A DNA stretch of 64,000 nucleotides from Methanosphaera sp. BMS (lineage in GTDB: Archaea; Methanobacteriota; Methanobacteria; Methanobacteriales; Methanobacteriaceae), in contig NZ_CP014213.1 in assembly GCF_003268005.1 (NCBI RefSeq), positions 1,550,001 to 1,614,000 of the forward strand, written 5' to 3'. Each line of letters begins with the position of its first letter. Positions within the stretch are counted from its first letter, which is position 1. The notes under the pieces are model-generated. The model saw only the letters and a list, made by a program, of their open reading frames with translations, was not told the DNA's origin and did not search any database. Both the position numbers and the translations under genes were made by a program. Below are positions 46,205 through 49,686 of this stretch, piece after piece.

Positions 46205-46699
46205 TTGACTTTGAAAGAACAAAAAGATAAACTATCCGAAAAGATAGATGAAGCAAAAACCAATACAAAAAACAAAGTTAAAGAAACACAGACAAACTTT
46301 GCAAATTCTACTGCTGAAAAAATGATTGTCTCACATATGAATAAAGCAGAGAAAAAAATTGATAAGGCAATAGAAGAAGCAGACAAAAATATATGTAAAA
46401 TGTTAGAAAATACGGACAAGGAAATTGAAAAAGGAAACAGACCAATTGATTTAATTTTATTCAAGGCCAACAGCCAATTTGAAGAAATCCTATTAGAAGC
46501 CGAGTTAAAAATGCAAAAAGCCAAAGTAGGATTAATCAACTCACTAGAAAAAGATGTTGATACATTTGAACATCTTGCCAATATAGAAGGCAATACTTCC
46601 GAATTTAGAAATAAATTACACGAAGGAAAAGCAAAAGTTGCAGATAAAATTGAATGTAAAAAAGAAGAAATTAGAGAAAAACTCAATAAAGAGGAATAA
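46205..46699 (+). CDS. Coiled-coil protein of unknown function
   Basis: 164 residues, almost entirely charged helix (Lys and Glu rich), with no membrane segment or signal peptide. No known domain recognised. TTG is the start: AGGTGAT lies three bases before it and no better codon follows nearby. It is 31 bases before the secreted pentapeptide-repeat gene on the same strand, so both are probably one operon. It may be a cytoplasmic partner or an unrelated neighbour. Apolipoprotein-like or phasin-like helical bundles look similar. Confidence 0.65.
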   Translation: MTLKEQKDKLSEKIDEAKTNTKNKVKETQTNFANSTAEKMIVSHMNKAEKKIDKAIEEADKNICKMLENTDKEIEKGNRPIDLILFKANSQFEEILLEAELKMQKAKVGLINSLEKDVDTFEHLANIEGNTSEFRNKLHEGKAKVADKIECKKEEIREKLNKEE

Positions 46700-46730
46700 T
46701 TAAGTTATTAAATATTTAGGAGAAGATATA

Positions 46731-47909
46731 ATGTTATCTAAAAAATACATATATGCAGTAGCATTATTGCTGGTGTGTTTTTTAGCAATTTCATGCGTAA
46801 GTGCAGCTGATGAACAGGCAAGTACCGATAACTCCGCTACAAGTACTTCCGACAGTTCAACTTCAGAACAAACTAGCAGTATGCCAAGTTTTGACATGAA
46901 CAGCTTAAAAACTTCATCAAATAGTAATGCTGGAGGCAACAATTCATTTAGTTTAGGAAATTCAAACGGTAGCTCAAGTAGAGGTAATTTTAATTTCAGT
47001 AGCTTAAACTTCAGTAGTTTAAATACTTCAGGATTCAATTTATCCAATTTAAATTTCTCAAGCTTAAACTTTAGTGGAATGAATTCATCAGGATTTGACT
47101 TATCTAAATTAAACATATCCAGTATGGGAAATGGTAGTTTCAATACATCCGGAATGAATATGTCAGGAATTGACTTATCCAAATTAAACCTATCCAGTTT
47201 AAACTTATCAACCCTTAATTTCAGTAGTTTAAACACTTCCGGATTAAATACTAGTGGTTTTAACTTATCCGATTTAAGTAACTTAAACCTATCAAGTTTA
47301 AATACCTCTGGATTAGACTTTTCCAGCCTTAACCTATCAAGCTTAAACTTTACAGGAATGAATTCATCAGGATTTAACTTATCAAGCTTAAACCTATCCA
47401 GTTTAAACCTATCCAGCTTGGATTTATCAAAATTAAACCTATCCAGTTTGTTTAATATGAACAAAACAAACGATACTCAAAATGATACACCAGAAGTAGC
47501 TCCGATAGTGGACAATAAACCCGTAACTGATGATGTAAAACCTGATGTAAAAGTTGTTAAAACTACAACAAAAGATAAAGCAAAAACAACAACAGTTAAA
47601 AACATAGCCCCAAGTGCTGCAAAAACATTTACCATAAAAAGGGCAAATGATTCCAGCGTTCTTTATCAAGGTGACAGTACAGTAACCCTTGGTGAATTAG
47701 ATAAAATATTTGGCACATCATTTGCAAGTGGACAGTTAGTTCTAACTATTGATGGTGAAGTTGTATTTAACGGCACTGTAAACGGTGACTTAGCAAGTGT
47801 AATATTTGATATCATTGAAAAATTCCTTGGTGAACACAACATAAAAGTAGAATTTACAGATGATGCCAATAACACAAATACATTCGAAGAGAATGTTATT
47901 ATAGAATAA
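46731..47909 (+). CDS. Secreted pentapeptide-repeat-like protein rich in N-glycosylation sequons
   Basis: 392 residues. A signal peptide covers about 1-25 (hydrophobic core ALLLVCFLAISCVSA). After a Ser/Thr-rich stretch, residues 86-242 are tandem five-residue units of the type [L/F/M]-[N/D]-x-S-[S/G/K], in register from about 86 to 180 and, after a three-residue insertion, to about 242. Most units hold an N-x-S/T sequon, about 26 in this region. The pattern fits a pentapeptide-repeat beta-helix on the cell surface. Residues about 255-295 are a Lys/Thr-rich linker, and about 297-392 a compact C-terminal domain (TFTIKRANDSS...). AGGAGA precedes the ATG. No homolog of the full architecture is known to me. 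Confidence 0.75.
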   Translation: MLSKKYIYAVALLLVCFLAISCVSAADEQASTDNSATSTSDSSTSEQTSSMPSFDMNSLKTSSNSNAGGNNSFSLGNSNGSSSRGNFNFSSLNFSSLNTSGFNLSNLNFSSLNFSGMNSSGFDLSKLNISSMGNGSFNTSGMNMSGIDLSKLNLSSLNLSTLNFSSLNTSGLNTSGFNLSDLSNLNLSSLNTSGLDFSSLNLSSLNFTGMNSSGFNLSSLNLSSLNLSSLDLSKLNLSSLFNMNKTNDTQNDTPEVAPIVDNKPVTDDVKPDVKVVKTTTKDKAKTTTVKNIAPSAAKTFTIKRANDSSVLYQGDSTVTLGELDKIFGTSFASGQLVLTIDGEVVFNGTVNGDLASVIFDIIEKFLGEHNIKVEFTDDANNTNTFEENVIIE

Positions 47910-48171: not shown

Positions 48172-48807
48172 TTATTGTAAATCGAGTATACCAAATAACA
48201 GCGGTATTGATCTACCTTCATTGATTGCATTTGTACATATATATGCATCATATGCACAATATATAACATATACCAAACCCAATATTGTTATAATGGAATA
48301 GATACCAGTATTTAAAAATATGATGTTCAAAAGTATTGGGACAAATCCAATCAGACATAAGACAATTCCTCTTTTGATTAATCCAAGATATAACTGACCC
48401 AGTCCACTTAAGAAATATATGAGAAATCCTGCAATTCCGCTTAGTAATGTAGCTACCCATTTATTTTTTTGATTGACCGGCACATTGTATCCTCCAGGAT
48501 AAGGGTTTTGACCTGGATTATATTGACCATTACCATACTGACCATTGTTGTATGGACCATTATTGTATGGACCATTATTGTACTGGTTATTATCATATTG
48601 ATTAGATGTACTCTGCTGATTATTTGGCTGAGGAATATCCTGTTGTTCAATTTGAGGATTGTTATCAGGTTGATAGTTATTGTTAAAATTTTGATTAGTA
48701 TCTGCCTGTGGCTCTTGCTGAGAAGTTATTTGCAAATTACCTCCACAACTTAAACAAAATTGTGCATTATCTTGATTATCATACCCGCAAAGATGACATT
48801 TTTTCAT
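48172..48807 (-). CDS. Zinc-ribbon, Asn/Gln-rich, TM2-like membrane protein
   Basis: 211 residues. An N-terminal zinc ribbon CHLCGYDNQDNAQFCLSCG (4-22), then a low-complexity Asn/Gln/Tyr/Pro linker (about 25-110) that includes short YNNGP/YNNGQ repeats, then a TM2-like membrane domain with three hydrophobic segments (about 118-140, 143-165, 170-192). The GLGQLYLGLIKRGI sequence is the TM2 motif. GGAGG lies seven bases before the ATG. Role unknown. It faces a 12-bp repeat array that also encodes Asn-rich peptides, on the opposite strand. Confidence 0.7.
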   Translation of the reverse strand: MKKCHLCGYDNQDNAQFCLSCGGNLQITSQQEPQADTNQNFNNNYQPDNNPQIEQQDIPQPNNQQSTSNQYDNNQYNNGPYNNGPYNNGQYGNGQYNPGQNPYPGGYNVPVNQKNKWVATLLSGIAGFLIYFLSGLGQLYLGLIKRGIVLCLIGFVPILLNIIFLNTGIYSIITILGLVYVIYCAYDAYICTNAINEGRSIPLLFGILDLQ

Positions 48808-48933
48808 GAAATACCTCCGAATATTAATTTATAAAAACAATTATATTAACCATCATTATATATATTTTATTCCAAACAAGGATATGATAAAAATAATTTT
48901 CTGATTATATTTACATGGTTGAAGAATTCTCCC

Positions 48934-49493
48934 ATTATAACAACAATTATAACAACAATTATAACAACAATTATAACAACAATTATAACAACAATTATAA
49001 CAACAATTATAACAACAATTATAACAACAATTATAACAACAATTATAACAACAATTATAACAACAATTATAACAACAATTATAACAACAATTATAACAAC
49101 AATTATAACAACAATTATAACAACAATTATAACAACAATTATAACAACAATTATAACAACAATTATAACAACAATTATAACAACAATTATAACAACAATT
49201 ATAACAACAATTATAAGAATAATTATAACAACAATTATAACAACAATTATAACAACAATTATAACAACAATTATAAGAATAATTATAAGAATAATTATAA
49301 CAACAATTATAACAACAATTATAACAACAATTATAACAACAATTATAACAACAATTATAACAACAATTATAACAACAATTATAACAACAATTATAACAAC
49401 AATTATAACAACAATTATAACAACAATTATAACAACAATTATAACAACAATTATAAGAATAATTATAAGAATAATTATAAGAAATGTTGTGAT
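48934..49493. repeat. Tandem array of a 12-bp unit, about 46 copies
   Basis: About 560 bases of the unit ATAACAACAATT, almost without change. A variant unit ATAAGAATAATT is found at 49213, at 49273-49296 (two copies) and at 49453-49476 (two copies). Two plus-strand frames are open: one reads (NNNY)n from an ATG at 48915 to 49550 and the other (ITTI)n. Neither start has a ribosome-binding site, and the differences between units alter the peptide in both frames, so I do not call it a gene. The near identity suggests recent expansion by slippage. Confidence 0.85.
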
Positions 49494-49686
49494 TTAAATC
49501 AGCAAATATATAATAATGGAAAATTAAGATTAAAACAAAAAAAGCAATAGTGGAAGCAATATGTCAAAACATGACTACTTCCATAGTGTTAATGAGTCAT
49601 AACACATCGTATTTTTAGACAATAATTATTTTATGGAACAATTTACGCATACATCATACCAATATATTCATATGCAAAAACAAATT

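Follow-up and report, generated by a model that had tools for sequence, protein, structure and literature searches.

Among the closest described counterparts of the protein examined here are the adhesin-like proteins of Methanosphaera and Methanobrevibacter, which likewise combine an N-terminal signal or anchor with Asn-rich repeats (PMC11532034). The word 'pentapeptide' is absent from that survey of adhesin-like proteins (PMC11532034), and our literature search found no paper pairing Methanosphaera with pentapeptide repeats. In the literature that we found, glycosylation of the adhesin-like proteins of gut methanogens is assumed, not demonstrated (e.g. PMC12134236).

A second point of comparison is the pentapeptide-repeat proteins (PF00805/PF13599), in which tandem pentads carry N or D at position i−1, often L or F at i, and S or T at i+1, with A, C, S, T or V at i−2. 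A quadrilateral helix accommodates 20 residues and about 4.8 Å per coil. A precedent for an N-glycosylated pentapeptide fold is provided by luminal domain 4 of SV2C, a eukaryotic vesicle protein, which forms a lumenal five-coil quadrilateral beta-helix with three conserved N-glycosylation sites (PMC8145042, PMC5923319). The present protein, which has 26 sites against the three of SV2C, would be comparable to it in fold.

Here, we analysed a window of 64,000 nucleotides (positions 1,550,001–1,614,000) from the 2.87-Mb single-contig genome of Methanosphaera sp. BMS. One gene in this window encodes a protein of 392 residues that we interpret, with somewhat better than even confidence, as an exported surface protein in which selection maintains roughly 30 [L/F/M]-N-x-S-[S/G] units as closely spaced N-glycosylation sites.

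Organization of the gene and its product

The open reading frame, its coordinates and its repeat proved to be as described in the original prediction, and the following features were assigned within and directly upstream of it.

46205..46699, plus strand: 164-aa coiled-coil protein lacking a signal peptide (31-nt gap to the next gene; linkage of homologues)
46731..47909, plus strand: 392-aa sequon-rich repeat protein starting with ATG (open frame; full-length orthologues)
46731..46808, plus strand: predicted Sec signal peptide or N-terminal anchor, residues 1–26, ending CVSAA before DE (sequence; helix in the model)
46809..46979, plus strand: Ser/Asn/Thr-rich linker, fast-evolving, residues 27–83 (identity and omega of residues 1–83)
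46989..47273, plus strand: repeat block A, 19 pentads, residues 87–181 (unit count; tandem repeats of 60 and 15 nt detected by TRF)
47274..47282, plus strand: three-residue phase break L-S-N, residues 182–184 (conserved in four orthologues)
47283..47447, plus strand: repeat block B, 11 pentads, residues 185–239 (unit count; orthologue alignment)
47457..47618, plus strand: second linker, fast-evolving, residues 243–296 (30–47% identity among orthologues)
47619..47906, plus strand: C-terminal domain, residues 297–392 (profile matches in exported proteins; model)

The signal region, made up of KK, a hydrophobic core and CVSAAD, was kept in 4/4 orthologues, and residues 4–23 form a helix in the AlphaFold2 model; the protein is predicted from its sequence to be exported. 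The phase break between the two repeat blocks reads LSN, LTS, LSG or LTG in the four orthologues. We treat the 254-aa open reading frame at 46700–47464 of the minus strand not as a gene but as a shadow ORF produced by the repeat.

Density and conservation of the sequons

As originally predicted, the N-x-S/T sequons of residues 86–242 are numerous and mostly five residues apart: exactly 26 were counted against an estimate of about 26, and the gap was five residues in 18 of 25 cases and ten in four more. When the same residues were shuffled in 20,000 composition-matched trials, the mean was 9.9 sequons (SD 2.3) and the maximum 19. The whole protein contains 34 sequons versus 13.6 expected, by far the largest excess in the window, while the background, formed by the 48 other genes of the window, gave 124 versus 127.2 expected when pooled. 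Twenty-nine units fit the pattern [LFMI][ND]x[ST]x, with N at the second position in 25 and D in four; S or T at the fourth position in 29/29 is built into this search pattern, but units lacking S/T are rare in the protein (2/27 N units and 1/5 D units).

Orthologues that are 66–70% identical along the whole length were found in three other Methanosphaera genomes. Twenty-two of the 26 sequons are intact in all four proteins, and the remaining four were lost through exchange of N for D with the Ser retained; S and T are the only residues seen at the acceptor position. Omega was lowest in the repeats (0.09–0.13), followed by the C-terminal domain (0.15–0.17), and was 0.27–0.55 elsewhere, linkers included; residues 1–83 showed 42–50% identity and an omega of 0.33–0.55. 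The orthologue alignment of the repeats is gap-free save for one exact extra pentad in block B of the L003 protein. The low omega and the retention of 22 of 26 sequons indicate that the repeat is a maintained protein feature, in which individual sequons are dispensable, since N was exchanged for D at several sites.

TRF detected tandem units of 15, 30 and 60 nt in the repeat DNA, a pattern that a functionless low-complexity expansion of DNA could produce. We give this explanation almost no weight. The pattern does not stem from a recently arisen DNA repeat, because its Ser codons are diverse (AGT, TCA, TCC, AGC and TCT) and the orthologues conserve the pattern at the low omega given above; these old repeats are conserved in four species under purifying selection, and their length changes by whole pentads. 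An expansion lacking function was thus ruled out by conservation.

Exported and intracellular members of the repeat family

Periodic sequons alone prove little, because the ordinary pentapeptide consensus A(N/D)LSx can hold N-L-S. The sequons may accordingly be a structural by-product: outside the cell, N would be preferred because its stacked side chains form a ladder without charge, Ser would be preferred as a polar residue for the surface, and no glycosylation would be involved. This account is consistent with several observations: the ordinary consensus reads N-L-S whenever N is chosen, the Pfam register places N at i−1 and S at i+1, both of which are ordinary choices, the N to D exchanges retain Ser, and Ser follows D in the D units too.

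The repeat family has both exported and intracellular members and offers a within-family test of sequon selection. An exported paralogue, par1 (L038 6181–8121), shares 29% identity over about 530 residues (E 2e-60) with an intracellular relative of 1326 aa (L086 706–4686; G000:C1:930205–934185), which has no signal peptide and consists of an N-terminal SAP domain (Pfam E 3e-10) followed by Asp-rich repeats. It is unusual for one repeat family to be common to a protein of nucleic-acid-binding type and an exported protein. The SAP-domain protein was found only in G000, with a fragment in G015. Its 20 sequons versus 18.9 expected are at chance level, and the exported members of the genus have sequon z-scores of 5–9.

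We scored hydrophobic-[N/D]-x contexts for S/T at +2. After N, S/T was present in 79/106 contexts (75%) of four long exported paralogues and in 25/27 (93%) of the repeat protein, compared with 8/36 (22%) of the intracellular form. The contrast between the four paralogues and the intracellular form gave p 6e-8, an optimistic value, as are the other p-values of this test, in that repeat units are not independent; the intracellular side of the comparison is one protein. After D, the frequencies were 54/106 (51%) in the exported paralogues and 46/98 (47%) in the intracellular form (p 0.58); the repeat protein has S/T in 4/5 D contexts, too few for a contrast between N and D. Among the four long paralogues, the difference between N and D was individually significant for par1 alone, and not for the three of the sister genus g4. 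No such effect on S/T was seen between exported and intracellular forms at offsets +1, +3 and +4.

Ordinary pentapeptide proteins, sampled from the phylum with one from another phylum, showed the reverse bias, with S/T in 22/127 contexts after N and 38/87 after D. Both in these proteins and in the intracellular relative, S/T follows only about 20% of N and is rarer there than after D, whereas the exported members reverse the bias at +2 only and for N only. This contrast between compartments argues against the structural by-product, the main rival explanation, which we regard as rather unlikely. Between the intracellular and the exported forms, the shift concerns N alone, offset +2 alone and S/T alone, the three features that define a sequon. 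The comparison thus suggests that the sequons as such are kept by selection in the exported proteins.

A second paralogue, par2 (L038 8580–9554; G000:C1:620579–621553), adjoins par1. Its units are Met-rich (MNMSG/MNFSG/MMSG), and their Met density would suit the binding of a soft metal.

Relationship to pentapeptide-repeat proteins

The unusual placement of L/F/M at i−2 instead of a small residue, noted in the original prediction, agreed with both the Pfam and the PDB alignments. The Pfam models place the N/D of each unit in the N/D column (i−1) and the L/F/M/I in the small-residue column (i−2). An alternative register with Leu at i and Ser at i−2, which would remove the anomaly, was rejected because the Pfam alignments of the repeat protein and both paralogues set N/D at i−1. 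Compared with the definition of PF00805, the protein has N/D at i−1, a fitting residue mostly at i, and more than the required eight contiguous pentads (at least eight; here 19 + 11 with one three-residue break), but L/F/M/I occupies i−2 in 29/29 units in place of the small residue.

The repeat protein scored 6.6 bits against PF00805, below the gathering cut-off of 20.2 bits, and no Pfam domain was found above cut-off in the whole protein; its relatives scored higher (orthologue of G009, 26.7; par2, 26.9; par1, 19.9 bits). In the PDB, the sequence matched quadrilateral beta-helix proteins of both designed and natural origin, with a best E of 3e-10; they include the designed beta1 solenoids 4yfo and 4yc5, NP275-NP276 (2j8k) and Alr5209 (6omx). 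These alignments indicate that the protein is a divergent relative of pentapeptide proteins, departing from them at one defining position. Unlike ordinary members, it is predicted to be exported, is rich in sequons, has far more N than D and falls under the Pfam cut-off. If the repeats fold as a solenoid, the bulky i−2 residue broadens what the pentapeptide code permits.

Fold of the repeats

The pentapeptide beta-helix of the original prediction is in line with these PDB matches, but AlphaFold2, run from three-row alignments, once with the whole chain and once with only the repeats, gave a pLDDT of about 40 for the repeats in both runs, at which the orientation of Asn is unreadable. A coil period of 20 residues (four units) was sought within the repeats and none was found, with an automatic block split that was imperfect for the orthologues. 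Foldseek with both models returned no match to a quadrilateral beta-helix, a result that is uninformative for low-confidence repeats. As the beta-helix itself is unsupported by the models, so are the further proposals of one glycan per quarter turn and of a rod.

If the repeats do form a quadrilateral helix, about 30 pentads would make 7–8 coils of about 36 Å in total, with stacked Asn residues some 4.8 Å apart. At that distance, the folded helix would leave some of the 26 sites without room for a glycan, and full occupancy would be sterically impossible. Real glycosylation would therefore imply either partial occupancy or an extended bottle-brush. In the latter case, the chain would resemble a mucin stalk, densely N-glycosylated before folding and with no beta-helix. 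The low AlphaFold2 confidence of the repeats fits such a form, as do a site density exceeding what a compact helix allows and the occurrence in the sister genus of unrelated sequon-rich segments (GNGTFDFGSLTNRS) before the same C-terminal domain. However, the first position is hydrophobic in 29/29 units, the third often is, and omega is about 0.1, which implies a packed core, whereas mucin-like stalks are hydrophilic and fast-evolving, like the two linkers that flank the repeats. We consider the bottle-brush unlikely, though less so than a functionless expansion of DNA.

A more far-reaching form of the glycosylation-site reading supposes a family of archaeal surface proteins in which a pentapeptide repeat has evolved into a dedicated carrier of N-glycans. 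Almost all units would be used sequons, which would place the chain among the most densely N-glycosylated polypeptides known, on a solenoid whose core position is unusually bulky, and the intracellular relative would have lost the sites or never had them. We judge this form doubtful, much as we do the structural by-product.

C-terminal domain and adhesin-like relatives

The original prediction had singled out residues 297–392 as a domain to be sought in other Methanobacteriales. A profile of 15 rows, searched against 150 Methanobacteriales genomes, matched 25: 11 of Methanosphaera, 13 of the sister genus g4 and, weakly, one of a third genus. Strong matches finish 0–4 residues short of the stop codon, and the passengers ahead of the domain are pentads, right-handed beta-helices and papain-like peptidases. 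Profile searches of Pfam and the PDB with the domain found no convincing family, with Big_13 matched weakly. In the model the domain is beta-rich with two short helices (pLDDT 74–88 over most of 331–392), and its structural matches, to Ig-like sandwiches, were weak. These matches define an undescribed, strictly C-terminal module of about 90–95 residues in exported proteins of Methanosphaera and its sister genus. From its position, the domain is a candidate for a common surface-attachment module.

In the sister genus, the same architecture of signal, sequon-rich segment and C-terminal domain occurs with related 650-residue repeats in L142, L147 and L151, and with other sequon-rich segments in L148 and L149. 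A sequon-rich repeat of the GNGTFDFGSLTNRS type lies before the domain in L149 798–1700 (G098) and L153 1075–1878 (G095).

The repeat protein resembles adhesin-like proteins in that it is exported as judged from its sequence, Asn-rich and repetitive, and shares its C-terminal domain with known, beta-helical members. It is unlike them in its small size (392 aa) and in a C-terminal domain for which Pfam holds no model; neither an archaeal Big domain nor a right-handed beta-helix domain scored above its Pfam cut-off.

Glycosylation machinery and neighbouring genes

STT3/AglB is encoded once in the genome (1,515,158–1,516,543), and its product carries a WWDFG motif. The features expected of an archaeal N-glycoprotein are present together, namely an export signal, N-x-S/T sequons and an encoded AglB. 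In the reading that we favour, that of a selected array of N-glycosylation sites, the N-terminal signal would export the chain and AglB would glycosylate a subset of the Asn residues outside the membrane. The repeats may form a short beta-solenoid whose polar Asn/Ser face points outward, and the C-terminal domain would link the protein to the cell surface. We infer that its purpose may be that of a glycan-display spacer within an adhesin-like coat. The protein offers a single target for measuring N-glycosylation and how closely spaced the sites used by AglB can be.

The coiled-coil gene ends 31 bases ahead of the start codon, as predicted. A homologue is present in all four genomes carrying the repeat protein; in the three other genomes it lies directly upstream in two and is separated in the third. 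In G015 (L160 1878–2344, G015:C43), pseudogene fragments of the coiled-coil and repeat-protein genes adjoin each other, which is consistent with an operon and points to its loss in that lineage. The linkage across orthologue genomes and these remnants agree with the shared operon considered originally, and the coiled-coil gene is a probable operon partner of the repeat protein. A diverged coiled-coil homologue also occurs in G012, with no repeat-protein remnant on the 5.5 kb examined. The G015 remnants adjoin a fragmented UbiB-like gene.

Two other repeats lie downstream in the window. At 48172–48807, a zinc-ribbon membrane protein carries N/Y/G-rich repeats (NNGPYNNGQY), and in L002 a homologue of it (19–681) is found close to the orthologue of the repeat protein. 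At 48934–49480, the 12-mer ATTATAACAACA is present in 45.6 copies at 98% identity; this array, which reads as YNNN repeats (211-aa open reading frame at 48915–49550) or as ITTI repeats in another frame, is probably a young satellite.
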